Source: Karstenula rhodostoma CBS 690.94 (Eukaryota > Ascomycota > Dothideomycetes > Pleosporales > Didymosphaeriaceae). Taken from it: a DNA stretch of 64,000 nucleotides. The DNA lies in assembly GCA_010093485.1 (NCBI GenBank), contig MU001501.1, forward strand, positions 1,691,052-1,755,051. Direction: 5' to 3'. The position numbers and the translations under genes are program-made. Below are positions 7,964-47,047 of the stretch, piece after piece. Positions within the stretch are counted from its first letter, which is position 1. Each line of letters starts with the position of its first letter. The notes beneath the pieces were generated by a model, which was given only the letters and a program-made list of their open reading frames with translations, was not told the DNA's origin and did not search any database.

Positions 7964-8041
7964 TTATCTCACTAGGTCAGACGCGCGCGCACGGCCCACC
8001 TATCCCCCAGCCACACTACCAACCTGCGCGCGTCTAAGGGA
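7964..8041 (+). repeat. Left terminal inverted repeat of island 1
   Basis: Begins TTATCTCAC and ends in CTGCGCGCGTCTAAGGGA, matching the reverse complement of 20292-20358. The two arms share the 9-bp outer end, a CAGCCACA block and the 18-bp inner block, with small gaps between. The arm is GC-rich and escaped the AT conversion seen just inside it. Confidence 0.75.
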
Positions 8042-8220
8042 CTATTAAAGTGGGTAAAAAAGTTACTTCTTTTAATACTATACTTTATTACTATATACCC
8101 TTTTAAAGAATTTAAAAAATAAGTAAATTATTTAGTAAAATACTAATAAAAGGCTAGAATTAATAAAAATACCTTACTAATTTATATAAAACTCTATTAG
8201 TATATTTATAATAAACTTTA
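8042..8220. other. AT-rich spacer between left TIR and 5' LTR
   Basis: RIP-mutated sequence without recognisable content. The first ten or so bases still resemble the inner side of the right inverted repeat. Confidence 0.4.
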
Positions 8221-8469
8221 TATAAAGGTTAATTTAACCTAAAATTAAATCCCCTTATAAGATATTTACTTACCTTTAAGTTTAGACTTTATTTAATAGC
8301 CTATATATAAATTAGTTAGTAGATCTTAAATATCTAGTATATAGAGAGTTCCTTTCTAAAACCCTCTTTATCTTAGTATTTTAAGTTTAGTTTTAATTTA
8401 TATAGTTTTTTTTATTTATTTAATTCTAAGAGTATTTATTTTATTTAGCTATATTCTAGTTTTATATTA
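8221..8469 (+). repeat. 5' LTR of the chromovirus
   Basis: Starts TATAAAGGTTAATTTAACCT and matches 16110-16359 and 18623-18871 along about 250 bp, including a shared TATATAGATTAGTTAGTAGAT-like block. The terminal TG and CA expected of an LTR appear as TA, as RIP would leave them. Confidence 0.82.
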
Positions 8470-15500: not shown

Positions 15501-16109
15501 AGCTAGGTCCCTTAAGTACCTAAATACTTAGAAGAAAGCTACTTTTAATAAAGTATTTTTAGATAGTAATCCTAAAGATAATATACCTATTAAGGTAGAT
15601 AATTAATAAAGGATTATTTAAAAATAGACTAGTTAGTATAGTAGCTTAATCTAAATAGCCTATCTAGTATTTATAAGGTATATTTACCTTATACTTTTTA
15701 GTACTATAAAGGATTAAGCTTTATATATTAAGTACTTTAAGCTTTTAACTATAATAAGGAATTTAAGGTTTTAAACTAAATTTTAACCTCTCCTTATAGA
15801 ATTAGGGAACCCTATATAATATATATATAATAGTGTATAATTAACTACTTAAAAAAATTCTAAATAAAAATATTTTTATATAGGAAATTATAGAGCCCTA
15901 TATAATTATACTAGAATAGGATACTCTAATCTAATTTATAACTATATAAGTTTAATAAGAAATTTTTTAAGAGTATAAAAGATATTTTTTTTATTTTTAT
16001 TTTTTTTCTTTTTAGATTAATTTATTCTTTTCTTTTTTTTTATAGATATAGGTATTCTTATAGTCCTTAAGGACTATTAAAACCCTAGATTACACTTAGA
16101 GGGGGGTAG

Positions 16110-16359
16110 TATAAGGGTTAATTTAACCTAAGGTTAAATCCCCTTATAGAATATTTACTTACTTTTAAGCTTAGGCCTTATTTAGTAGCCTATATATAGA
16201 TTAGTTAGTAGATTTTAAATACCTAATATATAGAGAGTCCCTCTCTAGGACCCTTTCTATCTTAGTATCTTAAGTTTAGTTTTAATTTATATAGTTTCTT
16301 TTATTTATTTAATTCTAAGAGTATTTACTCTATTTAGTTATATCCTGGCCTTATACTTT
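16110..16359 (+). repeat. 3' LTR of the chromovirus
   Basis: Follows the purine tract and starts TATAAGGGTTAATTTAACCT. It is somewhat less mutated than the 5' copy (it keeps a CCTGGCC near its end), so the two LTRs have diverged unequally. Confidence 0.82.
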
Positions 16360-18622
16360 ATATTTTTAATAACTAAATTACTTTTTATTTATTTAATTTT
16401 AAAAAAGATTTTTATTTTAATTAAAAAAGTAATATTAAATTTAATATAGTATAAATACCTTATTAACCTTTATATTTATTAAATATTACTAATTAATAAT
16501 ATTTATAAAAAGGATTTTAAATTAGTATTTATAAGTTTATTATTAAATTTAAAAGTAGGTAAATTAGGTATATATATTAGTATTCTATAGAGTAGTATAT
16601 ATATAAATAAATAGTAAAAATTTATTTAAATACTAAATTATATAATAGTATAGATACTAGATACTCTCTAGTATTTTAGTCTAGATATAAGTCTAGATAT
16701 TAAACTAGATATTAGTTTAAGTATTAGTTTAGATATTAGTCTAGATATTAAACTATAACTATACTAATAAAGTATAATTAAGTAATATAATATAGAAATT
16801 ATATTATATATTTAAGTAAAAAAGGGATATAATAATAAGAATAGTATATAAATAAATTTAAAAAATTTTTTAAATTTAGAAATATAGTATATTTAAATTA
16901 ACTATTTTAATAATATAAATAAAGTAATTTTATATTCTAATTATATTATATATCTTAAATATATATTTTAGATAAATAGTATATTAGAAAATATTTATTT
17001 TTCTTTAAGTTATAAAAATCTAAATATTTATAAATAAAATATTTATATTTAGCTAAATAATAAAGTTTTTAAAGTAATTTTTAAATATAAATAGAGTACT
17101 AGATATAATATATTATAAAAAGATTAAATATAATAAAATATACTATAAATAGAAATAGTTTTTAATAAATAGAGATTAGAATAAATATTAATTTAGATAT
17201 TAGTATATATATTAGTCTAGATATTAGTTTAGATATTAGTCTAGTTATTACTTTAAGTATTAAATTCTAGATATACTAATAAAGTATTATTAAATAGCTT
17301 ATTATAGAAATTATAGTATATATTTAAAGAAAAAAGAAATATATTAATAAAAATAATATATTAATTAATTTTTAAAGGTTTTTAAGTTTAGAAGTATAGT
17401 ATATTTAAATTATCTACTTTAAATATATTATATACCTTAAATATATATTTTAAATAAATAATATATTATAAAATATCTATTTTTTATAAGTTATAGAAAT
17501 ATAGATATTTATAAATAAAATATTTATATTAAGCTAAATAATATAGTTTTTAAAGTAATTTTTAAATATAAATAAACTCCTAGGTATATTATACTATAAA
17601 AGTATTAAATATAATAGATATCTATTTTAACTAGCTTAATACTACGCCCTTTTTAGTTAGCCTATATATAGATACTAGATAAGTTTTAGTTACTTTTTTA
17701 GTCCCCCTTTATTTATATATTAGTAAAATATAACACGTCTTTTTATCTCCCTTACTTTATTAATTTACCTACCCTTATAGTGATTATATATAATATATAT
17801 AATAGAATATACTATAAATATATATAGTTTTAAGTAAGTATAGATTAAAAATAATTAAGGATAGTTAAGAGAATTAAACTATTAAATAAGTAAGTAATAA
17901 AAGGTACTATAATTTTTCTTTCTAATATAGATATTAGGTTAGTACTAATATAGTATTTTAGTAAAAACCTAATATTAAATTTATTATTTTCTATAGAGAT
18001 AATCCTTAATAGAACTCTATATTTTAATACTTTATAACTTTTTACCTAACTATCTAATTATAATAGTTTCTAGACTAAACTATTTATAGTTAGTAGTATA
18101 ATATAATAGTAATTTATAAATCTTTTTTTTCTAAGTAGTTAATATTTTTTAATATACTTAAAGATTTTAAAAAAACCTAGAAAGTTTAAATTTTAAATAT
18201 CTCTATAATTATATAAACTAGAACTATAATTTTTATACTATTAAATAGGGCTTTAAGAGTAGATATATTTAGACTTTTAAAGTACTTAGATATTTAAACT
18301 TCTTATTTAGATAATTAAATTTTAGTATTTATTACTATAAAACTAGAAATAGCTATAACTTAATTATTATTAAAGCTAGAAATATAATTTTTAGTTCTAT
18401 TTAAAGTAAAAAGCTTCTTTAGTAATTTTAATATTTTAGATTTTTTAATTAGGCCTGGTTTAGATTTTCCTGGCCTAGATTAATATTATTATATTATATT
18501 TTAAGAGCTAATTAAAACGCTTAAATAGCTTTTTTTTTTAGCTAATAAGAAGGCTTAAAAAAAGTATTCTAATTAGATAATATATAGACCTAAGGTTTAG
18601 TTAGCTATATAGAAACTCTACT
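16360..18622. other. AT-rich sequence with an internal duplication and unidentified remnants
   Basis: RIP-mutated DNA between the 3' LTR and a solo LTR. It holds a tandem duplication (listed separately). A few patches escaped mutation, for example near 17642 (TACGCCC), 17733 (ACACGTC) and 18450-18480 (GGCCTGG). No protein fragment was recognised. Confidence 0.5.
16670..17605 (+). repeat. Tandem direct repeat, two copies of about 430-460 bp
   Basis: Copy 1 (about 16670-17125) and copy 2 (about 17195-17605) share blocks in the same order: a run of TAGATATTAGTCTAG units, ATAGTATATTTAAATTA (16883 and 17395) and AAAGTAATTTTTAAATATAA (17071 and 17552). The offset falls from about 512 to 481 bp because copy 2 lacks roughly 30 bp. 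They could be LTRs of a second, otherwise lost family. Confidence 0.6.
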
Positions 18623-18871
18623 TATAAGGGTTAATTTAATCTAAGGTTAAATCCCCTTATAGGATATTTACCTATCTTTAAGCTTAGGCCTTATCTAGTA
18701 ACCTATATATAGATTAGTTAGTAGATCTTAAATACTTAGTATATAGAGAGTTCCTTCCTAGAATCCTCTCTATCTTAGTATCTTAAATTTAGTCTTAATT
18801 TATATAGTTTTTTCTATCTATTTAATTCTAAGAGTATTTACTCTATTTAGCTATATCCTAGCCTTATACTA
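18623..18871 (+). repeat. Solo LTR of the same chromovirus family
   Basis: Starts TATAAGGGTTAATTTAATCT and matches the two other LTRs to their end. No internal element sequence is attached on either side, so it is best read as a solo LTR left by recombination. Confidence 0.75.
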
Positions 18872-20220
18872 CTATAATAGTTTACTTCCTTACTATATTT
18901 ATTATAAATAATAAAGTTTTAAAAATATAAGTTTAAAAAGTTATTATAATAAAAAGTAAAAATTTTAGATTTTTTTATATCTATAAAATTAATTTTTTTT
19001 TTTTTTTTTTTTTTTAATATAAAGCTACTATTATAACTATCTAATAATAAGAAAAAATTTAGAGATACTATATAGTTTTATTAAATAGCTCTAAAGGATA
19101 ATACTATTTATAATAAAAGAGAAAGAAAGATATCTATAGTATTAGATTTAATTAACTAAGTATTAATCTATTTATATATATTATATAATATACTAATACT
19201 ATAATACTATAATATTATAATACTATATAATACTAATAAAATAATATATTCCTTATTTACTAATATCTAATATATAATTATAGAGAAGTTATAAAATATT
19301 AAAGATATTATAAAATATTAATAATATTATAATTTAAAAAAGAATATAAAAAAAAGGTTACCTATTAATAGTAAGTAACTTATAATACTATATATAAAGG
19401 CTAATTTTTATAAAAAAAGACCTATACTATATCTCTATTAAAATAGCTAATAATAGTAAATAACTAATTCTTAGTAATAAATATAATCTAGTATATACTA
19501 GTAATAAGTTTATTAGTAATCTAAATATATCTAATTATATATATTATAAAATCTAATATATTATCTAGTAAATTAACCTTTATTAGTATAATAATTAATC
19601 TAGTATATAAATATTATAAGTTATAACTATAAACTATATAATTATAGAGTCTATTAATAAGTTTCTTATATATATATATATATAGTATTACTAATATAAT
19701 ATTACTAATATAATATTACTAATATAATATTACTAACTTAAGTAGGAATAATACTATAGTAGTTAACTAAAAATAAGGACTTTATATATAAATAGTAAGA
19801 AATAATTATAATAATTTTTAAGGACTAAAAGGAACTAGACTTTATAGTAAAGATAATTATAATTAAATTAAAGTAACTTATATAATTAATAAATATAAAG
19901 TAGGTAATAGCTATTCTATAGTAATAGATAAAGTAAAAAATAGTAAGTAATATTAATAGTAATAATAGATAGATAGTATTAATAGTAATAGTAATAGTAA
20001 TAGAATAAACTATAAGCTATAGGTAAAAGTTAAGAATATTAGTAAGTATAAGTAAGTAAAAGAGTTAGTATTTAAATAACTATTAATTAGTATTATACTA
20101 ATAATTAAAAAAGTATAAAAATATATAAAAAAAAGGTCTAAATTATATAAATAAAGATCTAAAAGTAAGTAAATAAGTATTAAAGAAGGATAAAAAGGTC
20201 TCTCTCTTATTATAAGTGTA
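18872..20220. other. AT-rich sequence with simple repeats
   Basis: No gene recognised. It contains a poly-T run near 18989-19013, three exact copies plus a partial fourth of a 14-bp unit TTACTAATATAATA at about 19688-19737, and AGTAAT-type repeats at about 19947-20003. The composition is again that of RIP-saturated DNA. Confidence 0.5.
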
Positions 20221-23046: not shown

Positions 23047-24135
23047 GAGTTGGGGACCATGACGGAGTTCAATGGTTGTCTTCCGCTCAGGGGTCTTTCT
23101 TAAGCGTTCCTGGAGTTCCTTTGGGATATCTCTTTGTGGGCGTGACGGATAGAATATGGTAGGAACCTAGAGGGTTGTGGGATGGGAGACTCATCATACA
23201 TACGACTCCCTGCTATCTCCTTTTGAGAGCTTGAGGCGTTGTCGGAAGAGGCAACCTTTAGTATAATATAACCACTGCCTTTTTGTGACCTTTTTTTAAA
23301 CACGCTTATTTTTGAGCTGTTAGCTAGAAGAAACACCTTTTTGTCAACATTTTTGTACTCCACTCGATAACTCGATCTTTTTGTGAATATTTCCCTGCAG
23401 ATAATATAACCACAAAATTCACGACAGGTTGGAACAAGAAGTGACTAACATTTCGCTCAATGGTTGTCCACGACTACTGCTTACCATGACTGTTTCATGC
23501 ATCGCATTGATGTTTACACGTATATACCCAATCCCATCAGCTGGATATCATCCCGGCGAAAGAAGGCAACGATATGGCTATTGGACCTCCCTTGGGTCTA
23601 GTGCAGTACGGCTGAGAGCCGAGTACATTTCGTCCTAAAGGTAAATTCAACCGTACATACATTCAGCAGCGCCATGATGGCAACAATAGCGCCTCCTACC
23701 AAAATGTGCGATTTAAACGAAGAACGAGCTCCATCTCCACGTATATGTACGCCAAAGAGGGACGCCAATTATCGTGCTCCCAGAATAGCAACAGCCGGGT
23801 CCTGCGGCTGAAGTGGCGCTAGGCCGGCTCTCCTGTACGCTTCGATGCAAACCCCACAAAAGGGATCTCCGTGCTCCCGCTAACGTCGCCTCCCGACGAG
23901 TCAGTTCGGAACGAAATTGACGGATGGCACCCCTTTAACGGCCCCTTTGACAGAATAACGTGTCCCGTTTGAGCCAGGTTCTCTCAAAATGTCGATTGCG
24001 CAAAGCAACGTCTTCATAACAGCGAATCAGCGAGTGGCAAGCCTCACCGGCGATATCCTCACCTGGGCAAAAGCGCGCTGAAGCTAGCGAATGATCTGCA
24101 TGACGGGGGTACATCGTGCTGTTCACTGTGGAACC
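23047..24135. other. GC island right half, nothing recognised
   Basis: Only short frames occur. The stretch ends at the 9-bp direct repeat that marks the left edge of island 2. Confidence 0.45.
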
Positions 24136-24144
24136 TGAAAGCGC
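24136..24144. repeat. Left target-site duplication of island 2
   Basis: TGAAAGCGC, repeated exactly and in the same orientation at 30822-30830. Confidence 0.7.
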
Positions 24145-24175
24145 GTGTAGGCAGGTCACCCGACCATGGTTTTTA
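24145..24175 (+). repeat. Left terminal inverted repeat of island 2
   Basis: GC-rich end sequence containing TCACCCGACCAT, matching the reverse complement of 30791-30821. The outermost seven bases match poorly and the inner 24 match at 22 positions. Confidence 0.72.
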
Positions 24176-25074
24176 GATCAGCGTATACTGCCCCCTTATA
24201 GGCGTATAGGTAAATTTTACAGTATATACTAAGGTAGCGCTAAGGCTTAGCGTATTATATAAGCTAAATTACCTATAATAAATAAAATTACCTAAATAAC
24301 TTCTAAATATATTTAACTATAATACTATATATATATTTATATAAATAAGTTCTAAATAAGTTTATATAGTAATTACTAATATATTTACTAAAAAGCTCCT
24401 CTACTATATAGGTAAATATATTCTAAATATATTCTAGCTCTAATATATAGTAACTATTATATTAATAATATCTAGCCTTAGGTTACTTACCTAATAGCCT
24501 TAGCCCCCTCCTAATAAATATATAGGTATTTATATTTAAACACGTTCTAGACGCGTTCTAAATATATTTAACTAATAATTTAAAAGGAGAGTATATTATT
24601 AAGTATAGTAAGAATAGGTATAAGGCTTATAGAGTAGGTTTAATATATTCTAAATTTATTTAAACCTTTTACTTATATAATACTAGAGGGTATACTAGAC
24701 CTATAGTACCTATATTATCTATATAATTAAGGTATATAGCTTTACTATTATAGATTTAATTTAAATATATTCTAAATATATTTACCTACTTTAATTACTA
24801 ACTTTTTAAAGATAAATAAAGGATAACTAGGAAGGTACTTCCTCTTCTAGATAGAAGGTAAATATATTTCTAATTTATTCTAAATACATTTAGCCTACTA
24901 ATTTATATCTAGCCTACTATAATACTATAATAGTAGCTTATAATACTACTAATACTATAAGTTTAAATATATTTAGAATATATTTAAGCTAATTCTTACT
25001 AGGCTCCTACTAGGCCTATTACTTCCCCCCCTTTTCTCCCTCCCCCTCCCCCTCCCCTTCCTGCCCCTAACTAG
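24176..25074. other. AT-rich interior with scattered CTAAATATATTTA motifs
   Basis: No protein fragment recognised. The near-palindromic motif occurs several times, and some occurrences sit in GT...CTAAT...AG intron-like stretches, for example 24858-24912. One copy near 24540-24570 still carries CpG (GTTCTAGACGCGTTC). Confidence 0.45.
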
Positions 25075-26052
25075 GTAAGCCCTTTAAATAGATTCTAAAC
25101 GTGTTTATACTAATATACTTAGGATAATAATAAAGATAAAGAGGAAAAAGAAAAAAAAGAAAATAAAAAAAAGGAAGAGAAAGAGACTACCTCCTTCCCC
25201 CCTATCTAAGTAAGTCCTTTAAATAGATTCTAAATAGGTTAAGAATATATTTAAGCTAATATCTATAGAATAAGGATAAGGATAAAGAAGATAAAAAGGA
25301 AGAGATAGAGGTAGAAAAGAAAAAGAAAGAAAAGGCCCCTCCTCCTCCCTTTAGTCTAGTAAGTTTTTTAAATAGGTTTAGAATATATTTATACTAATAT
25401 CTATAGAATAAGGATAAAGAAGAGGAAGATAATAAAGAAAAGGAAGAAGTAGAGGAGAAGGCTACTCCCTTCCTCCCTACCTAGGTAAGTCCTTTAAATA
25501 GGTTCTAAATAGGTTAAGAATATATTTAAGCTAATATCTATAAAATAAAGATAAAGAGGAAGAAAATAATAAGAAAAATAATAAAGAGGAAGAAGAAATA
25601 GAGAAAAAGAAGAAGGAAGCCCCTCCTCCTCCCCTTAATAAGATAAGTCTCTTAAATATATTCTTAACTTATTCTAAATATATTTTAGTAAATACTAATA
25701 TTTTTAGCCCTTAACTAGGAACTAGAGGAAGAGGAGGAATAGAAAGGAGAGGAAGAGGGCTACTATTACTACTACTACTACTAATACTAGTAGTAGTAAA
25801 ATTACTACTAAAGTAAGTTTAAATAGGTTTAGAACGCGTTTAACCTATTACTAATATATTTAGGCCTCTACCCCCTTAACTACTACTAAAGTAAGTTTAA
25901 ATAGGTTTAGAATATATTTAACCTATTACTAATATATTTAGGCCCCTACCCCCTTAACCCTAAAGAGGTAGGGTAGTCCTTAGGGTAGTTTTAGTAGTTA
26001 GGTAAGTCTAAATAGATTTAGAATATATTTAAACTATTACTAATATATTTAG
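25075..26052 (+). repeat. Array of eight near-identical intron-like units
   Basis: Units at 25075-25122, 25210-25268, 25359-25406, 25485-about 25543, about 25643-25707, 25813-25863, 25891-25941 and 26002-26052. Each starts GTAAGT/GTAAGC (mutated to ATAAGT in the fifth), carries a core like AAATAGGTTTAGAACGCGTTT, has a CTAAT branch-type motif and ends in TAG (TAA in the fourth). Lengths are 48-67 bp. Between the first five lie purine-rich blocks that would encode Lys and Glu runs followed by Pro. Between the last three lie short, partly duplicated blocks. See the findings for interpretation. Confidence 0.65.
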
Positions 26053-29000
26053 CTATCCTCTCCTAGTAGCCTATTTAAGAGAATAAAATTAAGTCCTTAT
26101 AGTAATAATAGTAGCTATAAAGCTAGCCTTAGATATAAAGCCTAAATATATTTAGAACTTATTTAAACTAGTCCTAAATATAACTATAAACTATTCTTTA
26201 GGTAAATAATAAAGTTCTAAATATAACTCTAAACTATTCTTTAGATAGAAAATAAAAACTAAGTAGTATCTTATATAAATATATTAATAATATATTTAAA
26301 TATTTTTCTTAAATATATTTATAATATAATATAATTACTATTTAATTATATTTAACTAATTTAAAAGGTTTTTCACGCTAGTCTATATATAGGAAGAATA
26401 AGGGGTAAGAGAGAACTATAAAAAAATCCCTTTCTTTACTTTATAGATATTACTTCTTTATTTATATTCTCTTCTTAAAGTACTTTATTATAATATTAAA
26501 GCTAGAATAAAATATAATTCTTCCTATAAATATATTCTAATATTATTTATAATATATTTAAGTAGGCCTCCTACTAAAAGTATACTTAGTTTAGGTCTCT
26601 TCCTCCTAGTATACTAGAGCTTTCTAAAGATATTCCTAGTAAAGGGTACTTTATTTACTCTAGGGAACTATATTACTAGGTATTACTATTAAATAATATA
26701 GGAACCCTACTCTATAGAGTAAGTTCTTTTATAGGAATATATTATAAATAAGTTCCTAATATATTTAGTAGTATTTTTATAAAAAGGGTATACTTTATAC
26801 TTATATTAAGCAATATTATCTAAACTACCCTATTACCCCTAGAAAGACTAGCTAAGCTAGCTTTACCTAAATATTAAAGGCTATTATTTAGTATACCTAG
26901 CTTATAACTTTAAGCTCTAAAGATATCTATAAAGAGGGTAGCTATATAAGTATAGTTAAACGTATTCTAAATATATTTAAACTAGTATAAACTATACTAG
27001 TTAAACCTATTTAGAATACTTCTAATAAATAAAATACTAGTTACTTTCCTACTTACCTAGTAACTCTAGAGGAATAGTATTAATAGATATTCCTTTAATC
27101 TACTCTTTTTTACTCTACTAATTATATAAAACGCTAGGTAAAAGGAAAAGTAAGAAAGTATTACTTTTTTTTAAAAAGTAGCTAATTATTCTAGCTAAAT
27201 TTAAAAACCTACTAGTAACTTCTTTTAGCCTTAAAGTTTCCTTCTATATATTTAGTATATAAAGAGAAGAATCTATCTATTTATTCCCTTTAAGGAAAAT
27301 ACTAGGGATAGTAATACTTTAAAATAGCTAAGTAAATATATTTAGAATATATTTAAGCTACCTAATATATCTATCTATAGTCCTTTTTTATATAAATCTA
27401 TCTCCTTTTATAGCTTAAATTACTACTTATCTAGCTTAAACTACTCTCTCTAAATAGTAATTTAATCTCTCTATAGCTATAGTGCCTCTTACTTTACCTA
27501 TAACTCCTAGTTTTAAATAAGAACTTATTACTATATAGATTAATTTCTACTTAAATATATTAGGATTAACTTTAGAATATATTTAAATTAATATACCTAG
27601 AATTTAGAGAAGATCTAATAGGAGATATTCTTACTAGAAAGGATCCTATAGGAAAAGTTCTTACTAGAAAAGATCTTATAGAAGGAGACTTTATAGGAGT
27701 AGTCTTTCTAGTTTTAGCTAAAAGTAGGCTACTTAATAGATACCTTACTCTTTCTATATTAATAAAGCTAGATAAATCTAATATATAGAGTACCTTATCC
27801 CCTTCTATAATATTCTTAGGTAAATTATTCTCTCTTTACCCTAAATATATTATAAATATATTTATAGAGATTTTACTTAGAACTTACTCTTTTTTACTTA
27901 TTTACTAGCCTCTCTTTATATATTAATAAAGAACCTCTAAAATAGACTTAAAGAACTATAATTTATATATTAAATCCTATATATATCCCTTACTTTATAC
28001 TCTATAATATCTTAAAGATCTATTTATTTTATACTAGAATATATTATAAATATATTCTTAATAGGTTTATATTAACTTACTTTAGAATACCCTTAAGAAG
28101 AGGTTACCTCTACCCTATTTAATATCCTTTATTTCTAGCTTATTTAACTATATTAGAGTATAATTCTATTTAATTCTAAGTAGCTTTAGGTATTAGACTT
28201 ATATCTTATAGTAAGCCTACTATAATTATAGGATATTTCTTATACCTTACCTAGTTCTTAATACTATCCTATATTAAATTCTCTAGAATATATTAGGAAT
28301 ATATTCTAAATATATTTAGTCTTTACTTCTTACCTATAAGAAAATTATATAGCTTTATATATTTAGCCTCTATTCTAATATATAGAAGACTCCTTATTTA
28401 ATCCTATACTATTCCCTAAATATATAGTACTCCTAGAACTGCTTTATTAATACTTTAATAGAAGTATATATAATAAAAGTATATTATACTTTAGAATTAC
28501 TAATACTAGTCTTTTAAATAAGGGTCTAAGATATAAAGTATTTTCCTAAAACCTATAAATATATTTAGATAGTATTAGAAATATATTTATTTAGTTTACC
28601 TTATATTTACTTTATATCTATATTAACTATAGTACTAAGAAATCCCTAACTATATAGATAATTCTAATAAAGGTTCTTTTAGGTAGTCTTACTACTTTCT
28701 TAGAAAAAGTAGAGTAAGCTATCCCTATATACTAATAGAGATTTAGAGTTAGTAATAATTTAGTTAAGAGTAATAACTAGAACTTATTAGGAATATATTT
28801 AAGTAAAGCGATTAATAAACTATACTTTTACTATACTCCTTATAAAAGATAATAATAAGAATTTTAAACTATCCCTTTTTAAGTCTTTTATAAAATATAT
28901 CTATTTAGAATATTATCTATAAGAAGAGAATCTTTACCTATTAGTTATAGAAATAGACTATATAGTTAGCTAAAACTATTATAGTAATATCTTAGATATA

Positions 29001-30790
29001 ATACTAAATATATTAGGAATATATTTAAATAAATATATTTAGAATATATTTATATAAATATATACTTCTACTAGATTCTATAGATATCTTATATACTACT
29101 TATAGAGAATACCCTTAAGACTATACTTAAATAAGAAGGTAATAAACTTTTTATATTTTATAATTTACTAAATTTAGTCTTTATTAGTAAAGGTAGTATT
29201 TAGTTCCTCTAAATATAAGATATTTTACTACTATAGATAGACTAGTAGTTATAGAGAATTTAGAAACTAGACTAAACCTATTATTAATATATTCTAAATA
29301 TATTTCTATAGATAAGCTTATATCTACTTAGTATTAGTATAAGTATTAGATAAAGAATATTATAAATCTCCTCTAGCTAGTCCTTTAGGAGAAAGTATAG
29401 TAGTAGTAGGATATAAGAGTAAGTTCTAGATAAAATAAAAATATAGTAGGGAGTTTTTACTAGATTAATAGGAATAAGGATAAGAAACTTTACTAGATAG
29501 GTCTCTTTTACTATTTTACCCTAACCTTAGGGATAATCTACGCCTAAATATATTAAGAAGTTATTTAGAATATATTTAAACTTAAACTTACTATACTAAT
29601 TAATCTAAGCTATTTAGGGTTCTATAATATTATAGTATTCTATTAGGAGAGGTAGGCTATTCTAGAATAAACCTTTTAGATAATTAATATCTACCTTTTA
29701 TAATACTTTCTAAAAGAAGTAGTTTTCTATTTTTACCTTTTACTATATCTATACTTTATACCTAATTACCTAGTATATAGAATTAGATAGATCCTACTAT
29801 TATTAGCTAGAATAAGTTCTAAATAAGTTATAAATATATTCTTATATAGTATAGTAGTTAAAGAACTAGGCTATATCCTTATAGATATAGTATATAATAT
29901 AACTAGTTTTACTACTATCTTTACTTTATACTAAAGTAATACCCTAATACCTTTTTCTCTCTACTTCTTCCTTTATTTAAGATACTAGTATAAAGCTATT
30001 TTATCTCTTTAAAAAGTTAAGGAGTAACTTTAATATATAAATAGGTTTAGATTATATTCTAAAGGTATTTATAGCGCTTAATCCCTATATATATATACTT
30101 CTACTTCTATATATTTATATTTAGGAATAGAGAAAAAGTTTATTTTAGAGGGTATACCTTCTTTTTAGAGTATTATATCTAAATATATTAGAATTATATT
30201 TAGAACTTATTTAGCTATATATACTATTAATACCTTCTCTAGTACCTTCTTACTAGTTAGGTATATACTATTAGCTAGCTATAGTATATAAATAATATAT
30301 ATAATACCCTTATTATAGGTCTTTAGATATATTAGAAGGATAGAGGAGTAAATTATTTCCTTAGTATATAGTACTATACTAAGCTTCTTATTTATACTCC
30401 TAAGTATAAATAGTGCTATCTATATAAATATATTATAAATATATTTAGAATATATTTAGGCTAAAAGTATACTATAACTAGTAGTTTAATACTCTCTTAT
30501 AACTCTTATAACTAAAGGTTATTATTAGATTTAACTACTATATCTAAACTAATATTCTAAAGTAGATTAGGGTCTTTAGGTAGTAGGGTAGGTTATAGTA
30601 ATAGATTATAGATAAAATCTATATTTAAATATATTCTAAATAGGTTAGCCCTAGGGAGGTATTAGGAGAATAAAGAGATAAAGAGGATACTAATAATAAC
30701 TTTATTCTTAAAGTAACCTAACTCTGAAAACTCTATAATTACTACTTTAGGTAAGGTGGTTACACTAGCAAGGGGTATGGTCAGCCGAGG
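26053..30790. other. AT-rich interior of island 2 with a motif iterated every few hundred bases
   Basis: Variants of CTAAATATATTTA or TTTAGAATATATTTA recur roughly every 200-300 bp to about 30650. Some are embedded in GT...AG stretches, for example around 27340-27395. Near 27600-27700 there is a short imperfect tandem repeat with the unit GTTCTTACTAGAAAAGATCT. No coding sequence was recognised. Confidence 0.45.
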
Positions 30791-38362: not shown

Positions 38363-38934
38363 ATGTCTGAGAACAGTCGTAACCGCAACTACTATGGCGA
38401 CCTCGGTCTGACCCCAAGTGCGACGGCGACGCAGATCAAGGCCGCGTGTAAGATACTCCCCGGTACAAAGTCGCTATGTCTTAGACATGGACACTTCGTA
38501 CATAGACCCACTTTCGTGACTCAGCTGACTTTGAACTTGCGAATATAGACCATCGACTCGCCTTGCTCCACCACCCGGACAAGCAAGGTCCCGGCTCCGA
38601 AGGCGACGCAAGCAAGTTCCGCAACGCCCAAGAAGCCTATGAGAAACTTTACGAGGCCAAGGTGCGGGAAGAGAAGAGCAAGGCGACGTACAAAACGACC
38701 ACCGCCACCGATACCGACACCGACACCGACATACGTCCTTTCAACGTCTTCAACCCTCGCCCACGTCGATCTCCACCTGCACCAGCTCCCACCCAAGACG
38801 TCCCCCACCCGCGCGCACCTCCGAATGCTTCTGCTCCTGCTCCCAATACTCCTCGCCCAACCACGAAGAGGACTTACACCTACAACCCGAACGCGAAGTT
38901 CCACGACGTGGGCTCCGAGTTCGAGGAACACTGA
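38363..38934 (+). CDS. Small J-domain (DnaJ) protein
   Basis: Two exons (38363-38447, 38549-38934) separated by a 101-bp intron encode 156 residues. The J domain starts almost at the N-terminus: NYYGDLGLTPSATATQIKAA is helix I-II, then YHRLALLHHPDKQ with the HPD tripeptide at residues 37-39, and FRNAQEAYEKLY as helix III. The HPD loop stimulates the ATPase of an Hsp70 partner. The rest is a Thr-Asp dipeptide stretch and a Pro-rich tail with no zinc finger or C-terminal substrate domain, so it is a class C (type III) J protein. The cellular client is unknown. Confidence 0.88.
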
Positions 38935-39133: not shown

Positions 39134-40903
39134 TCAGTGATTGCATAGCTCATCCAATGGTATCGCGACTGTGTTATAAAAGTCAAGTGCAGTCGCGCCC
39201 CCTCGTAGATTCAAGCACCATTGCACCACTTCTTTGTACTTCGTCCCGACCCGATACGCCAATTCATGTTTAACTCGTATATCAATCCTTCGTTTGAGTT
39301 CGATTGCCTCAGCTTCGTGAAACTGCCTCATACTCGGAGACAGTGTCACGGGTGGCTCCTTGCCAGGTTTGAATTTGGCTGCCAACATATCCATTAGGGG
39401 ACCCCAAAGCGCTATTTCGAAGAGCAGTAAGCCGAGTGAGTAGATGTCGTAGTGCATCTGATACCCGGATGCTGCGTCTCCTTGGTAAAGAGGGTGACGG
39501 TAGATGGCAGCTTCCAGATCATTGAGAACCTTCCCGCGGTCGATAGTCTGAGCTTGCGTGAGCTGTCGTGAATAATTGAAGCCCTGAACGAGAGCGATGT
39601 TGATTGACTTGAAGCTTTCTACTGAGCTTGCAGTAAGGATCTGCGGGAAAATGATGTTCCTACTGTTGATTCCCTTGTGATACCAATCGCTGCCGTACAG
39701 GCGAGCAAACGAGTCGACAAGCCGCTTCGCTAGCTTATAGCGCGCCTCAAGGGCTGGTTTATATGGCAATAAATAGAGATCTCGCAGACTAAGCGGCTGA
39801 TATGTTTTGCTACCGAGAACATCCAGTGGGCCCGACGGGAAGCGGAAGACGATCCACCAGCAGTGGTAGTTGGGATCGTCGAGATAGCCTAGTGCTTGGA
39901 GTGTGTTGAGGTGTCGCTGTGATCTGGGCTCTCCGAGCAGAGCTATGAGCTGGCGGATTCGATCTTGCAGTATGTCTTTTTCGTCGTCTGCGATGTTAGG
40001 GTCGTACTCTTTCTTTTCGAAGAGATAAGCAGCCTCGGTATATATCAGCCCTCGTTTGATGAAACGCATCTGAATCCGGTCTTCAGTGCGGATGCTCGTA
40101 AGGCTCCAGTCTTTCAAGGAATCAGCAGTTGTGGCTGGTGGCGACGGAGGAGCTACGGTGATGGCTTTCCATTGCGCTAAGGTGCTAATATCCATCTGAG
40201 AAAACTGATCGTTCCAGACAGGAGCATCGCGCAGTTGTGAAAGAGCTTGTGGATCCGAAAGGCCGCGGATTATATCCAAAGCTATTCGAGTTCCCTCCTG
40301 CTGCACCTTTCGCCGATCATGTTCCACAATAAAGTTTTGCAAACTGTTCACATGCTTTTCAAGCTTACTGACGAAGCCTTCGAACTTTTGTTTGTCGTGC
40401 ACCGCCCAACAAACCCGTTTCAAGACACTTGGGTCATCTTTTTGTTGCGAAACTCCCACCCGAGCAGCATCTGCTTCTATCTTAGCCGCAATACTCGTTT
40501 TCTGCGACCTTGCACCGGTTAGGGCAGTGTGCAGGCTCTTCCGCATCTGAATGATTGCGGAACTTGTTCTTTTTTTGCTGCCATCTCCTGTATCTGCAGT
40601 CCTGAGTCCAAATTTTCCTCCTTGTTGCTCGACTTCCGTAACAAGCACGCATATCCGATTCAGAGTTCGCGCGATAAGCTCTTCGAACGGCAGAAGTGCG
40701 CTGAGAAGGTCTCCCTCAGTCAACCCTACTTTCTTCGCCCAGATGCCCAGATGAGCTTTCAGTGTCTCTAACCGGATGAGGAGATCTTCACTGTCATCCG
40801 AGAAGCTGATTGTATCGTCAAGTACTTTCCAGGCTTCGACAGTGGCCTTTAATACGAGTGGCACAACGCCTACAATGAGGCCCGGCAGTTCAAGGCCGGA
40901 CAT
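39134..40903 (-). CDS. HeLo-domain protein with C-terminal pseudokinase
   Basis: A single exon of 589 residues. Residues about 5-205 form a HeLo (prion-inhibition and propagation, HET-S type) helical domain: hydrophobic N-terminus (LPGLIVGVVPLVLKATVEAW), then LETLKAHLGIWAKKVGL. In HET-S and related proteins this domain inserts into membranes and kills the cell when released. Residues about 300-585 have a kinase fold: the catalytic loop reads YHKGINSRNIIF and subdomain IX reads YDIYSLGLLLFEIALWG. The catalytic Asp of the H-x-D motif is Gly, the loop Lys is Asn, and the DFG position reads GFN, so catalysis is unlikely. The plan resembles MLKL. It is divergent from the kinase-ankyrin gene. Cell-death activity is inferred. 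Confidence 0.85.
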   Translation of the reverse strand: MSGLELPGLIVGVVPLVLKATVEAWKVLDDTISFSDDSEDLLIRLETLKAHLGIWAKKVGLTEGDLLSALLPFEELIARTLNRICVLVTEVEQQGGKFGLRTADTGDGSKKRTSSAIIQMRKSLHTALTGARSQKTSIAAKIEADAARVGVSQQKDDPSVLKRVCWAVHDKQKFEGFVSKLEKHVNSLQNFIVEHDRRKVQQEGTRIALDIIRGLSDPQALSQLRDAPVWNDQFSQMDISTLAQWKAITVAPPSPPATTADSLKDWSLTSIRTEDRIQMRFIKRGLIYTEAAYLFEKKEYDPNIADDEKDILQDRIRQLIALLGEPRSQRHLNTLQALGYLDDPNYHCWWIVFRFPSGPLDVLGSKTYQPLSLRDLYLLPYKPALEARYKLAKRLVDSFARLYGSDWYHKGINSRNIIFPQILTASSVESFKSINIALVQGFNYSRQLTQAQTIDRGKVLNDLEAAIYRHPLYQGDAASGYQMHYDIYSLGLLLFEIALWGPLMDMLAAKFKPGKEPPVTLSPSMRQFHEAEAIELKRRIDIRVKHELAYRVGTKYKEVVQWCLNLRGGATALDFYNTVAIPLDELCNH

Positions 40904-41330
40904 TTTCGTGATTGGAAAGATCGAGTGGAGAACTGAGCGTTCGCATCTTGATGGAGTTCAGAGAGGGGACATATCTCGTATAAATTGGCTCGAGGAGGAA
41001 TTTAGCGCAAACTATGGCCCAAAATGGTCTAGTTGCATGCAGGTCGGCACGCCCTCTCCACCCATCCTTCACCGGTTTCCCCACCGCAGCTGAATGTTCA
41101 CGATGCATCTAGCCAATCCAGACGCTCAGCGCATGTTGCGGATATGCCGGTACGGACGCCGCATCCATCGCATACAGGAAAAGCAAGCGGCCTCAACAGT
41201 CATGTCTTTGCCCCGCGCACCATCCCCAGCTGAAGCGTGGCCCTCCTCACGTTCCGCAACATAGCGCACTATCTATCTTAACTGTTCTGCAACAGTCGTG
41301 ATACTAGTAGTTTCATTTCCGTGTGCCTCC
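40904..41330. promoter_or_regulatory. 427-bp bidirectional intergenic region of the HeLo/kinase pair
   Basis: The HeLo-pseudokinase and kinase-ankyrin genes start from opposite edges of this stretch. It must hold both promoters, so co-regulation is possible. No binding motif was identified. Confidence 0.45.
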
Positions 41331-44300
41331 ATGGACGAGTTCGATTGGGTCAGGTCGTTTTCAACTTCCTATGGAACCGTCAGCCATGAATTCCCCGCTG
41401 TCGAGCCAAGAGAATCTCCGCCTTCGGCATCTCGTGGTTCATTCGCTTCCTTTGTCTGCCATGTTACCAACCTCGAGAGCAAACTACGCACACTGACGCC
41501 TATCGTCCTCGATGATTCTTCATCTGTTCGAGCTACAGGAAAGATTCTAGGTCAAGGAAAGACGTTCATGGTGAGGCACGCTCTATGGATGAAGGATCCC
41601 AACGAGCCCCCACTCGATGTCGCTTTGAAGGAAATCATTCCTGATGTCCAAGCCGAGGAAGAAGCGTCACGGTACAGTCAAACAAGCCCGCTGAAAAACT
41701 GCAGCTGACTGTGCAAGATTCGCATCTTCGATGACCAATAGACCACAGGTTGACTGGAAAGAGATCCTGTTTGAGCTCCGAGCTTTGCTTCACGAGCCTG
41801 TTCGATACCACCCGAATATCGTTCGTCTTTTGGGGATTCAATGGGGCCTTTCACCGATCTCTGAGTCGACCTTCCCAGTATTGATCATGGAGTACGCTTC
41901 ATTCGGCACCTTCAAGACTCTGCAGTCTTCGCAAAATACGTTGCCTCTTTCAGTCAAACAGAAGTTATGCTATGATGTCGGGCGTGGCCTGTCTGCTCTA
42001 CACTCTGCTGGGATCGTGCACGGCGACATGAAGCATGAAAATGTTTTGATATTCCCTTTCAAGCGCAGCAGGAACTCAAACACAGCGCAAGTTCCGTATG
42101 AGATGCTATACACCGCAAAGCTAGCAGATTTCGGCGGCACGGTCATGGATATGCTGCCCAGCGAAACTCGAAAGCTGGAAACATGGACGTGGCCTTTCCA
42201 AGCTCCCGAAGTCAACGATGCTCGACCATTAACTAGAGAAGGAATGATGCTTACAGATGTCTACTCATTTGGACTCCTTGTTTGGCGAGCATTCGAGGAC
42301 GGTGATGGGTTTGTTTCTATTTCAGGGGCTGCGCAAAGTGCTCCAGATGAAGAGAAGCGTAGTCTCAGCGCCAGCAAGTCAACTGAAGAACTCACCCAAA
42401 GTGCCTTAAGAAGTGTCAAAAACTACGCTGCTTCGCATGCAGTCCCACAGGCATTTTTCGACATCTTTGCATACACAGTCTTTCACACCGTCAGGCTCGT
42501 ACCGAAGGATCGTGACCTCGTTAAAGCACTGGCGGCTCTAAGGGGCATAAAGTAAGCATAACCGAACAGCGATAACGATCTTACTGATTGTCGCTAGACC
42601 CGGTCACATACCCAGATATCGTGACTTTGTGCAAGAGAAAAACATTGAGCGTGCTGTTACGGAAGCTCGTGAAGCACCTGTAAGCCAAACCATCCCATAC
42701 AGTACTAAGGCAAAAGTCTGAGTACATTCGGCCTACGTATTGCCTATCCTGGGGTAACACACTGTACTCAGACTTTTGTTCTGATACTGTACGCGCCTGT
42801 CACTAATTGCGATAGGGGCGGCATGGGATAACCAGAGATGCGCTATCTTTCTTCCTCGGTCGTTCCGGAGATGACGTGGACTTGCAGGATAATCTGTACG
42901 CCTGTCTTCTTGTGCAAGGATGATTCACTAACTGTGTGCTAGGCCCGGATTCCGGCCCCAGCTTGACGAACCCAATGCAGAAGAATTTACTTTCGAGCCC
43001 GAGAAGCTGAAAAACATTCTGACATGGCACCAACAGCGGCAGATGCTTGAAGAGCTAAAGAGTGCGGGCTCAGATACTCGTGACAGCACTGGTGGCCTCC
43101 TTGATATGAAGAAGACGGTCGCCGCGTTTTATGTCTTCCAATGCTATCTTCTCGAATTTGGCACAGTATTCAATAACGTGGATGCCTCACAGTGGCTTCT
43201 TAAAGCTGCTTCAGATGACGACAGTCATGAAGACGAAGATTACCTCTCTCAAGCGTGGGCTTGGCGCATTTCACGAGCTCTGGAAGTCAATCTGGACATG
43301 CCAAGACAAACACTTGATGCGCTTCTCAAACTGTCCGTCATACGTGGTCACAGAGTTTGCCTTCATGATATTCAGGAGCTTGCTTCTATTGGCAGTGCTT
43401 TGGACCGCCAACAATGGTGGAATACTTTTCAGCAAGCTCGTCAAATCTTACTATCGCAGATGGGTGGCGTCGGCATGGGCTACTTTTTCTCATCCCACCT
43501 TAATCCACCATGGAATAAGGTCGAAATGGACAATCTGGAAAGCCTGGACGGAGCGCTGCGTGCCGTTTTAGGTAGTGCTTATGAATCATGTCTGAGGGCG
43601 TCTTCATTGCACACCTCTAACAACACTGGAAGCGATACAGAAGACTCCAGATTCGATCGGATCTACGTGAACAGACGTGGTCATGGTTTGTTGCATTATG
43701 CTGCAGCGGCCGGTTTGTCGGAAACTTTGCAGCACCTTGTCATCACATATAACTGCAACATCGATTTGCCGAATCAACATGTCGACGAACCGCCTCTTGT
43801 GTGTGCTTGTGCGGGAGGCAAACTCGACTGCGCGTTGTTCCTGCTAGATAACGGCGCCGACCCCAACGGTTACCTCTTTGGACAGGAAGGGCCTCTTCAT
43901 TGGCTTTCAAGTTTCTTGCCAAACGAGATGGAACATATCGCTAGTAGACTTGTCGCCGCCGGGGCAGAACTCGAGCTGCGTTCCGGTGGTATGCGTCATG
44001 ATGTCCGCGGTATTCGAGCAGACTGGGAACATACCTTCGAAATTCGCACTACTCCCCTAGGGCGAGCAGTTTTGATGAACAATCTGGACGCTATCTTGGT
44101 TCTCCTAAAGCTTGGAGCCAACCCTCTTGCAAAGAGTGCAAAGAAGCATCGTGGTGAGTGGGAGGGGTCGAATGACATGTCTAAAATGATGGATGTGGCA
44201 TCGCCTTTCGAGCTCGCTGCTGTCCTCACTTACCCCGAGATACTGGCTGCTTTCATCACTCACATTGATGGAAGCGCCACTTCTCCAACCCTGCGGCTCC

Positions 44301-45760
44301 TGAGCGAGGTCGGCATGTTAGATCTTGCTCGAAGCAAGGCGGTAACCAGGACTGACCCGCTCTCACTCCAGAGTCGCCTCGTTCGTTGTGGGAGTCGCTA
44401 CAAGCAGAACTTGAAGGCTTCACTAACGATATTGTATGCTCGGGCTTTACCATTCACGGGCGGAATGGCTTCCGATGATCTACAGAAAGAGAGAAGCAGG
44501 GTCCTCAGCCGAGAGGTTAGACTGGGCAACGTCGATATCGTGGAGACATTGCTAGAGCTGAAATATCATCCAGACGGAACTCAGTACCATCGTCCAATCG
44601 AAGAAGCTATCAGGGTGAACCACAACGCTCTGTTCGACCTCTTGAAAAGGTACAACGCCAACCTTTCTGTTACCCAAATGACGCCTACTGGAGTGATATC
44701 ACTGCTTCACGCATGTGCATCTCGGCATCGTCAATCGCGACCGGGTAGGTATATCGCAGATGCACTCATAGCCGCAGGTGTACCTCTGGAAAGCGTGGAT
44801 TCGCGAAGCAAGTCACCGCTTGCAATGGCGATTCTGAACCAGAACTTTGACGTCGCGGCTGCGTTGGTCGACAATGGTGCCAACGTCGATGCGCTCTACC
44901 CGTTGCAAATTCCTGGATCGCATGGGTTAGAGACAAGATACACCACAGTACTCGTGGAGGTCCTATCGCAACATACCATGCGTACTATTGAATCGCTGAA
45001 ATTTCTGTTCGGAAAACGCAATGGGAGTCCAAAGGAACGGCCCGCATTCCACACAGACCCCGCTAACAAGTTCTCCATCCTGCATCTTCTAGCTGGCAGT
45101 CCGAACTTCACGCACATTGCGCAGATCACGCCTAAGATACTCAGTCTTTGCCTGGAAACGTACAATGAGCCTTCGTTGATCAACTACAGGCACCCTCTGC
45201 TCGGATCCGCACTCTGCTATGCAGCAGCAAACGGACAGAAATCAATGGTAGATCTCCTGCTCAAGCACGGGGCGGATGTCAGCGTTGGTGCAGGGCCGGT
45301 GGTGAGAGACTCGGTGCAAGTCTTGCTTCGGCCTAAGACATCCTGGACGCCACTTTGGGCTACGATACTAAAGCTCGACGAGGAATTATCAAAGGGGATT
45401 CTGCTGCCATCCAAGGATTCACCATATGACTGGCTTCACTCATCTTTGTTGCAAAATCTTGAGAAATGCGTCACCTTTCTGTCAGCCAACAATGATGATG
45501 TGCTTGCGCAAAAGGCCGTAGAACGACTTAGACAGAAGAGGCGCTTGGTTGAAGAAGAAGAATCTAGATGGTGGGTTGAAAGACACAGGAATAGCCAGAC
45601 AACGGAAATAGCAAAAACACAGCAACCCTTGGACCTGGGTTTCCTTCCAGGGTCGGCAAGTGAGAATGACGAGAGGAAGATCCGAGATATCTGCAACGGT
45701 ACTGAGCCTGACTGGAGGTCAGGAGAGCTCGGTCGGCTTATGCGCAATATGCACCTTTGA
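41331..45760 (+). CDS. Protein kinase with C-terminal ankyrin repeats
   Basis: Five exons (41331-41671, 41718-42551, 42598-42679, 42816-42895, 42943-45760) encode 1,384 residues. The kinase domain (about 65-345) has the full set of motifs: glycine loop GKILGQGKTF (70-79), VALK with K100, HGDMKHEN (215-222), DFG (251-253) and APE (276-278), followed by DVYSFGLLVWRAF. The order and the RxHPNIVRLLGI segment resemble RIPK/TKL-type kinases. The long C-terminal part contains ankyrin-like units (GLLHYAAAAGLSETLQHLV, PLVCACAGGKLDCALFLLDNGADPN, SALCYAAANGQKSMVDLLLKHGADV), which usually bind proteins. There is no signal peptide. The start ATG at 41331 was preferred because the frame upstream begins only with GTG. 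Partner and substrate are unknown; the divergent pseudokinase is a candidate. Confidence 0.87.
42700..42789 (+). repeat. Palindromic MITE-like insert within an intron
   Basis: Inside the 136-bp third intron of the kinase-ankyrin gene, CAAAAGTCTGAGTACA (42711-42726) is the exact inverse of 42763-42778, with a 36-bp loop. The similarity continues outward to CAGTA and TACTG at the ends. The other introns of the gene are 46-47 bp, so this one is about 90 bp longer, which is the size of the palindrome. Confidence 0.7.
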
Positions 45761-46055: not shown

Positions 46056-47047
46056 ATGGCGTCGCGACAGGTCAGTCTTCCCGGCTTAATCCGCCCATTG
46101 AAGCCCGTGAGAATACTTACTAGTACGGCTTTAGAAACAGCACAATCCTTCGTCCAACAAGCGTGCCAGAGCCTTCGTCAGCGTCGAGAAGTCCCAGAGG
46201 CATGTAACACAATCGCGTAACTCATAATCAGTAACTAACAGCTCAAAGCTGGATGACGGGTCCTTCTATACAGGTCGTGGTTGGCAAGAGCGAATCCTCT
46301 CGGGTGTTCGGGGTCTTCCGCAACCTCATCACAGCTCGGTCTAAGTTCTTCGAGACAGCACTTAATGGTCGCTGGGTAGAATTAGACGATAATATGGTCA
46401 AGCTCCCAGAAGAGGATCCCGCTCTCTTTCAGAAGTAGTTGCAGCTCCTGTACTTGAACACCGTTCCTCTCCGAGAGAAGATCGATGTCCTCACAACCCA
46501 GGATGGGGAGCCCGATGGTTCTGTCAGCAACAAGACGAGGCGACCAGAAGAGGAGATATCGGACGACGTGTCAGCTGCTGTGACACGGGAAGTGGCCACC
46601 ATCATAGACCTCTATATCTTCTGCGAAAAGATCCAAGACGTCCGGTCAAAGAACATCCTCACCACCGCGATTCTAGAAGCTACTCAGACGCAACGAGAGG
46701 ATGGTTTCGAGTATACTATCCCACTCGACGGCCCCACGATCCGCTTGTATGATACTACGGCTCCTGGCAATAAGATGAGGAAGCTTCTCGTGGATCATAT
46801 CGTTGTATGGGGTGACGTGGAGTCGTTGCAGGAACTGCAGCACCCTTCACAATGGGAAAAGGATCCCAATGCTCAGCGCGATGCTAGAACGGAATTCATG
46901 TTCGATGTCGCAGTTGCTCTATTCAAAAAGTGAAACGATCGCTATGGTTATATTGTCGCATCCGATTACCACGAGCTGCTTGAGGAAGCTGTGTCTGCGG
47001 ATGACGTCTTGTTTCGGGACGAGGACGAGGACGAGGACAACGAGTAG
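46056..47047 (+). pseudogene. BTB/POZ-domain protein gene, broken
   Basis: From 46253 one reading frame continues to 47047 but is interrupted by TAG at 46436-46438 and TGA at 46931-46933. Both sit where a Trp would fit: ALFQK-stop-LQLLYLNTVP and VALFKK-stop-NDRYGYIV. The BTB core is clear: VVVGKSESSRVFGVFRNLITARSKFFETALNGRW. Just upstream, LDDGSFYT belongs to the same domain but lies in another frame, so a frameshift near 46273 is likely. An upstream ATG at 46056 followed by GTCAGT probably was the first exon. BTB domains mediate dimerisation and cullin-3 binding. The C-terminus is an acidic Asp-Glu tail. Confidence 0.72.

Follow-up and report, generated by a model that had tools for sequence, protein, structure and literature searches.

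The 64,000-nucleotide stretch analysed here (the window) covers positions 1691052-1755051 of contig MU001501.1 (C10 in our numbering) in the 44.3-Mb assembly of Karstenula rhodostoma CBS 690.94, a pleosporalean ascomycete, and carries two divergently transcribed genes that form the subject of this report. Gene 1 (39134-40903 in window coordinates, minus strand) encodes a 589-residue protein in which an N-terminal HeLo domain is joined to a pseudokinase. Gene 2 (41331..45760, plus strand) encodes a 1376-residue protein in which a kinase domain is followed by a middle region and by ankyrin repeats. Their divergent start codons are separated by an intergenic region of 427 bp (40904..41330). A preliminary description, made from the letters of the window alone, had read the pair as a candidate MLKL/RIPK-like cell-death module, with one partner stripped of its catalytic residues and the other retaining them; the domain scans, alignment and gene models given below agree with that account of both genes and of the distance between them.

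Gene 1 is a single exon, supported by its open frame, domain scan and homologues, whose reading frame runs uninterrupted from an ATG at 40903 to a stop at 39134-39136 on the minus strand; among its closest homologues, that of Paraphaeosphaeria minitans is 80% identical and another is 83% identical. Residues 10-208 (40280..40876, minus strand) match the Pfam HeLo family PF14479 with 73.9 bits against a curated cut-off of 23.2 (E 2.1e-20), and HET-s structures rank at the top for this region in the profile search, Foldseek and VIA. The N-terminal region is therefore predicted to form a HET-s-like HeLo helical bundle, which is the fold on which the preliminary description had made its proposal depend. 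In the hydropathy profile, residues 4-22 constitute the most hydrophobic 19-mer of the entire protein, while residues 1-9 are modelled with a predicted local distance difference test score (pLDDT) below 50. The pseudokinase, delimited by motif alignment and predicted structure, occupies about residues 265-589 (39137..40111, minus strand); the kinase-like DUF7580 (PF24476), which precomputed annotation assigns to many gene 1 homologues, matches residues 382-568 of gene 1 itself with 21.3 bits, under its cut-off of 27. Here the HxD motif reads H409-K-G, with Gly in place of the catalytic Asp, N413 stands where the catalytic-loop Lys would be, and the DFG motif reads G441-F-N; the loop Asn (N416) and the beta-3 Lys (K298) are retained. 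Because the last helix of the model, at residues 572-588, belongs to the kinase C-lobe and the protein ends at residue 589, there would seem to be no room for a HET-s-like prion tail, though no search for an amyloid motif was made. By both domain scan and structure model, gene 1 shares with MLKL the layout of an N-terminal helical bundle followed by a C-terminal pseudokinase.

Gene 2 comprises five plus-strand exons (41331..41671, 41742..42551, 42598..42679, 42816..42895 and 42943..45760), separated by introns of 70, 46, 136 and 47 bp that are all GT-AG and whose removal leaves a single frame. Exon 2 holds the bulk of the kinase domain, including HGDMKHEN, DFG and APE, and exon 5 the middle region and the ankyrin repeats. 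The public protein from the same strain (P0088; 1384 residues) is 99% identical. Intron 1 (41672-41741) has two usable acceptors 24 bp apart, and the public model starts exon 2 at a point 24 bp upstream of ours, the difference amounting to 8 residues of the kinase N-lobe. Intron 3 (42680..42815) harbours at 42697-42792 a sequence resembling a miniature inverted-repeat transposable element, with 16-bp perfect arms set within a longer imperfect repeat; among the best 40 of 74 candidates scored, one being the sequence itself, the other 39 are 77-92% identical to it. Pkinase, PK_Tyr_Ser-Thr and ankyrin-repeat families score above their Pfam cut-offs, whereas the middle region has no Pfam match, a Sel1 repeat being annotated there in a few relatives. 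In the wider family, HxDxKxxN is present in 115 and DFG in 116 of 120 rows (the best 120 of 164); of the rows lacking both motifs, two (P0112 and P0113) are without a kinase domain in their Pfam annotation. A Pfam scan of P0088 at E 0.01 returned kinase and ankyrin families only, with no RHIM or death domain such as RIPK1 and RIPK3 carry, though RHIM was not specifically sought. It likewise returned no NACHT or NB-ARC domain, such as would mark the NLR partner of het-S/nwd2 clusters.

Evidence that the two genes belong together comes from their distribution. Protein searches, in a database clustered at 90% and with only the candidates sharing most words being scored, supplied 87 homologues of gene 1, the best 120 of 164 for gene 2 and the best 120 of 218 for a gene 1 profile. 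By score and identity in these lists, rather than by a tree, the gene 1-like rows were divided into a clade of 139 and an outgroup of 40 distant HeLo-pseudokinases or kinase-like proteins, of which nine (P0079-P0087) have no listed HeLo domain. Linkage was read from the identical size of the longest contigs and from locus tags rather than from DNA, a procedure by which orientation elsewhere is not readable. A gene 2 homologue was found on a same-sized contig for 38 of the 139 clade rows but for none of the 40 outgroup rows, and on these counts the idea of chance neighbours was rejected. Ten of the 38 shared contigs are shorter than 100 kb, and one of them, of 6,997 bp, has room for little else. 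Where both rows of a linked pair bear locus tags, these are consecutive in nine of 16 cases: Paraphaeosphaeria minitans (PMIN04_007983/4), Exophiala bonariae (LTR84_001033/4), Alternaria burnsii (GT037_004884/5), Massarina eburnea (469011/2), Chaetothyriales CBS 132003 (g4795/4), Staphylotrichum longicolle (NEMBOFW57_010976/7), Cladophialophora chaetospira (H2200_013205/6), Pyricularia pennisetigena (PpBr36_08941/2) and Pyricularia sp. CBS 133598 (PspLS_04131/2). Mycena and Crucibulum likewise have matched pairs; hence, the linkage spans Ascomycota and Basidiomycota, and at protein identities of 30-40% it is kept across Pleosporales, Chaetothyriales, Sordariomycetes and Agaricomycetes. Lindgomyces and Decorospora provide a within-species control, in that their distant HeLo-pseudokinases, P0283 and P0294, lie off the contig of the pair. 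Thus, linkage and co-occurrence in other genomes, on which the preliminary description had made its proposal conditional, are seen, at the level of contig matches and locus tags, in many distant fungi. These data also bear on the idea that the adjacency is neutral or purely regulatory, owing to a shared promoter or slow rearrangement, with no direct interaction of the products. Close relatives may indeed keep neighbours by chance, and vertical descent alone yields agreeing trees, but linkage over distant orders at such identities, its absence from all 40 rows outside the clade and a second, rearranged kinase-ankyrin/pseudokinase neighbourhood in the same genome (see below) make this a very improbable account.

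Several observations weigh against so close a partnership. In seven of the 16 tagged pairs, the tags are not consecutive: two pairs from Chaetothyriales are 15 and 12 apart, and five bear Joint Genome Institute (JGI) 'DRAFT' numbers, which need not track gene order; one of these five, that of Decorospora, is on a contig of 14.8 kb. No partner is listed for 101 of the 139 clade rows, some of which are short metagenome contigs or come from other assemblies of a species that does have a listed partner. More specifically, no close homologue of gene 2 is listed for eight named species whose gene 1 homologue falls within P0001-P0065, namely Phialophora macrospora, Zopfia rhizophila, Epicoccum nigrum, Melanomma pulvis-pyrius (P0050), Lasiosphaeria ovina, Lophiotrema nucula, Delitschia confertaspora and Didymella heteroderae; limits of the search and of the clustering could explain these cases. 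The homologues listed for Emergomyces pasteurianus Ep9510 lie on separate contigs. Further, sharing a contig at the megabase scale is not adjacency, and as the gene 2 search was seeded with the clade's own partner, the zero in the outgroup refers to this kinase family only; more remote kinase partners of the outgroup may have escaped the search. In the reverse direction, all 25 NCBI-named gene 2 rows of at least 54% identity (P0088-P0111 and P0113) come from species, or in the case of Alternaria from a genus, with a listed gene 1 homologue.

The histories of the two genes are closely matched. Trees of the 38 pairs, in which P0172 represents a 35,200-bp contig size shared by two gene 2 rows, correspond with a Mantel r of 0.981, a value reached in none of 2000 permutations, and have 30 of 35 splits in common; the well-supported splits (at least 0.9) absent from the other tree number one for HeLo and three for the kinase. 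Part of this agreement follows from the vertical descent of linked genes. When we assign the paired species to the orders in which we take them to belong, both trees place Exophiala and three Chaetothyriales with the Pleosporales (Massarina and Byssothecium; support 0.73 and 0.86) and Cladophialophora in the other main group. Both also place Rhypophila with the Pleosporales and Madurella, Podospora and others in the other group, where Melanomma likewise falls. On midpoint rooting, three groups of 16, 18 and 4 are obtained. As both trees split the same orders in the same way and no pair crosses groups, the two genes act as a single unit of inheritance, the cause being either an old duplication or transfer, and on these sequence comparisons the linked, co-inherited pair is almost certainly a real module.

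Linked and lineage-matched partners would equally suit an incompatibility system, be it for allorecognition or a poison-antidote pair, in which phosphorylation would silence the HeLo-pseudokinase as a guard or antidote, and loss or mismatch of the kinase would unleash it. In the same vein, the kinase-ankyrin homologue P0202 of Lasiosphaeria ovina has a predicted C-terminal HET domain (1e-9), which is either a true fusion or a gene-model merger. However, incompatibility loci evolve fast, whereas this pair is conserved across Dikarya with largely agreeing gene trees, and we judge such a role decidedly unlikely.

The loss of catalytic residues in gene 1 is a property of its whole clade. With sequences of 450 residues or fewer dropped (three of 139 in the clade and three of 40 in the outgroup), 136 and 37 remain for the motif counts. 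In none of the 134 clade sequences with a residue at the HxD-Asp column is that residue Asp, as against 5 of 37 outgroup rows that have it. At the DFG-Asp column, too, Asp is absent from all 135 clade sequences with a residue, 134 of the 136 having Gly, one Asn and one a gap; in the close family, 69 of 70 aligned rows read Gly-Phe from this position on, the remaining row being gapped. The beta-3 Lys (K298) is present in 136 of 136. In the pseudo-activation loop, position 445 is Ser or Thr in 134, position 449 in 125 and position 453 in 129 of the 136 clade sequences, which makes S445, T449 and T453 of gene 1 candidate phospho-acceptors. The surrounding pattern GFx[YF][ST]R-x(1-3)-[ST]-xxx-[ST]-[ILV]-[DN] is found in 118 of 136 clade against none of 37 outgroup sequences, although, having been defined post hoc from the alignment, it describes rather than tests the distinction. 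If the comparison with MLKL is right, these residues lie at the site that a kinase should target; in the part of PMC12881547 concerned with it, MLKL phosphorylation falls in the regulatory loop of the MLKL pseudokinase. On the other side stands the outgroup, in which column 454 is Ser or Thr in 30 of 37 sequences and Ser occurs at 445 in 22 of 37. Hence, the loop Ser/Thr residues as such are not peculiar to the clade, only their surrounding motif being clade-specific in these alignments, and because conserved Ser/Thr recur one column away in the outgroup, our confidence in the mechanism proposed below is slightly lowered.

Comparison with kinases of known structure gives a mixed picture. Against the PDB, the gene 1 family profile finds MLKL as its best kinase (4m68 and 4btf, 4.4e-9), followed by two more chains at 3e-7 and 6e-7, with LIMK1 (1.2e-5) behind these best MLKL chains; the match is limited to positions 367-494 and aligns the AGFE of MLKL with the fungal GF-x. 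LIMK1 in turn precedes other MLKL chains, which score 2e-5 to 8e-5, and a profile of 30 unpaired outgroup sequences also places MLKL first (2.7e-11), with IRAK4 at 1.5e-9. The MLKL likeness that the preliminary description had proposed is thus upheld to the extent that MLKL is the top PDB kinase for this pseudokinase, but the notion of an affinity special to the paired clade was rejected, since HeLo-pseudokinases with no detected partner are equally MLKL-like. Nor was structure accepted as proving a kinship with MLKL: the model of the entire gene 1 protein matches many kinases, with a chain of a CRAF/MEK1 complex first, and MLKL is absent both from its best 50 structure matches and from the matches shown for the HeLo model, an absence that excludes nothing. 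For gene 2, every kinase below 1e-8 in the single-sequence search is RIPK1, as is every kinase below 1e-12 for the Mycena homologue P0189. A nine-sequence profile, restricted to the kinase domain as the full-length profile is swamped by ankyrins, ties RIPK1 (4.3e-17) with a chain of EGFR (7.6e-17) and LRRK2 (1.3e-16), and the kinase of a related locus on C8 (see below) is not RIPK-like, its first matches being EGFR, a Src/Abl ancestor and JAK2. In view of this tie and the C8 matches, a firm RIPK assignment was rejected. The earlier RIPK likeness is accordingly loose, RIPK1 coming first but in a tie, and the gene 2 kinase appears to be of the tyrosine-kinase-like type with a leaning toward RIPK, and no more than that.

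The best-supported reading of the pair, to which we give a slight balance of probability, is that of a kinase-triggered HeLo executioner switch resembling the RIPK-MLKL step of necroptosis. The analysis shows the domain make-up, the predicted HeLo and kinase folds, catalytic loss and retention, linkage, co-inheritance and the clade loop motif; each biochemical step of the switch is inferred. The kinase-ankyrin protein would be the sensor and trigger, its ankyrin repeats binding a ligand or partner and thereby relieving or clustering the kinase. The active kinase would then phosphorylate the pseudo-activation loop of its partner, most likely at the Ser/Thr residues after GF-x (S445, T449 and T453), upon which the pseudokinase half would free the N-terminal HeLo domain. 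As in HET-S and MLKL, the hydrophobic first HeLo helix might enter the plasma membrane, so that the compartment would be killed or sealed off. To this extent, the preliminary reading of the pair as an MLKL/RIPK-like module is partly supported, with phosphorylation, cell death and ankyrin sensing being presumptive elements drawn from the analogy.

Additional context for this proposal comes from the rest of the genome, in which a homology search with gene 2 detects two further loci that match a kinase profile as well as an ankyrin profile. The first, on C8 (L029, G000:C8:279500-289400; 2401-8603, minus strand, by profile matches and motifs), has a kinase frame at L029:7440-8603 and an ankyrin frame at 4934-7309. 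Next on that strand come two frames, at 4054-4662 and 2401-4011, which contain the motifs YYSGHGG and DCCFAG, with a caspase-domain match of 0.003 (on omission of a presumed intron) that lies below cut-off. They also show a gene 1-type pseudokinase (85 bits, 4.5e-25 with a custom profile in a small search), in which GFD replaces DFG. Ser/Thr residues follow the GFD in this pseudokinase loop. We regard this product as a candidate for a similar partner, in which a gene 1-type pseudokinase is fused to a caspase-like domain as another executioner. The second, on C5 (L032, G000:C5:126000-135900; 2632-7378, by profile and motifs), is a single-exon kinase-ankyrin gene (L032:4043-7378) divergent from caspase-like frames that are unrecognised by Pfam, bear YGGHG and DCCHA, and are 31% identical to the C8 protein (1.5e-10). 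A genome search with the Pfam caspase family gave two places, neither of them C8 or C5, and the caspase label is a candidate one at both loci, drawn from their motifs, from low-scoring profile matches and from their likeness to each other. All three kinase-ankyrin genes that homology reveals (gene 2, C8 and C5) thus adjoin a candidate executioner.

The converse does not hold. The genome has 13 further places with a HeLo or pseudokinase match, none of them within 100 kb of a listed gene 2 homologue, and six of these (on C9, C21, C16 at 316 kb, C2, C15 at 98 kb and C11) have no kinase-profile match in the 9.0-9.9 kb stretches around them; that all pseudokinase or HeLo genes are paired was therefore rejected. 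So was the pairing of all caspase-like genes, as four more relatives (C10 at 564 and 965 kb, C24 and C3) have no kinase match in 9.9-kb stretches. The stretch searched around a kinase match on C12 (L035) matches none of the ankyrin, HeLo and pseudokinase profiles.

The C8 and C5 neighbourhoods also help in weighing two other roles for gene 1. Pseudokinases such as STRAD and HER3 act as allosteric activators, and the arrow between the two proteins could be reversed, with the HeLo-pseudokinase activating the kinase-ankyrin protein or anchoring it at a membrane, and the substrate of the kinase lying elsewhere. The retained beta-3 Lys and predicted kinase fold are in keeping with this, co-conservation would be expected equally, and HeLo domains, which act at membranes, could serve for recruitment. 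However, the conserved Ser/Thr-rich pseudo-activation loop looks like a substrate, and the caspase-like domain that takes the corresponding position at C8 better suits an executioner than an anchor; on balance, we consider the reversed arrow unlikely. The pair might instead be a conserved signalling device apart from cell death, for instance in septal or membrane signalling, with the HeLo part being merely a membrane domain. We have seen no death assay for any member, and architectures combining HeLo with kinase-like domains are numerous in fungi. Such a function nonetheless seems rather unlikely in the face of the caspase-like neighbours at C8 and C5 and of the status of HeLo as a known executioner domain, as set out in the relevant portion of PMC12881547.

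An executioner switch of the kind favoured here would share with RIPK3-MLKL a kinase acting with a pseudokinase that bears an N-terminal helical-bundle membrane domain. GF-x stands in place of DFG in both MLKL and the fungal pseudokinase, and the beta-3 Lys is kept in the fungal one. In contrast, the fungal domain is a HET-s-type HeLo and not the 4HB of MLKL, the fungal kinase carries ankyrin repeats, the genes are linked, the tie to RIPK is not decisive, and the fungal system is known here from sequence. RIPK4 and ANKK1 consist of a kinase with C-terminal ankyrin repeats and thus parallel gene 2, which differs by its extra middle region between the two.

Among fungal systems, het-S/nwd2 and HELLP/PNT1, as portrayed in the sections of PMC12881547 devoted to them, likewise comprise two linked genes, one of them for a HeLo or HELL membrane effector. 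In those clusters, an NLR acts as sensor and serves as amyloid template for a motif of the effector, whereas here the partner is an apparently active kinase, and the effector of gene 1, ending at its kinase C-lobe at residue 589, appears unlike HET-S in leaving no tail for a prion domain. The fungal gasdermin/protease clusters, in the passages of PMC12881547 and PMC10197012 that treat them, also link an activating enzyme to a pore-forming effector, but that enzyme is a protease rather than a kinase and the pore-former is another. HELL or HeLo proteins with kinase or pseudokinase domains have the same architecture as gene 1, though the passage describing them does not mention a linked kinase-ankyrin gene. 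More generally, the portions of PMC12881547, PMC10197012 and PMC9815663 on these systems describe fungal HeLo/HELL executioners that are controlled by NLRs and amyloids or joined to an NLR in one protein. They also treat the clusters of gasdermin and protease genes, report how frequent clusters of two and three genes are, and mention HELL proteins that bear a kinase or pseudokinase domain. In the literature searched, to which preprints and papers under other licences do not belong, no description of a linked kinase-ankyrin and HeLo-pseudokinase pair was found; each half is of a known kind, and within that literature the combination is new.

As to the surroundings in the window, two AT-rich blocks at 8001-20000 and 24001-30000, with 15-30% GC against about 50% in gene space, look as repeat-induced point mutation would leave them; the gene pair lies outside both. 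By eye, we take the neighbouring frames at 38506-38934 and about 46056-46933 to resemble DnaJ-type and BTB-type proteins, respectively.

Necroptosis-like parts, such as HeLo domains and RHIM-like amyloids, are already known from fungi, and in the accounts that the consulted parts of these papers give, activation proceeds by NLR amyloid templating or fusion, or by proteases in the case of gasdermins. If the switch proposed here is true, the kinase/HeLo-pseudokinase pair would add the missing phosphorylation step, and the age of the kinase-pseudokinase death switch would become testable. In its broadest form, which we advance as a doubtful possibility, fungi would possess a kinase-driven death pathway of exchangeable parts, with a kinase-ankyrin sensor acting on a pseudokinase that cages one of several executioners, such as the HeLo domain of the window or the caspase-like protease of C8, and RIPK-MLKL necroptosis would be one animal branch of a switch that predates the split of Ascomycota and Basidiomycota. 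The pair would also give a named partner to part of the large and little-studied fungal HeLo-kinase family.

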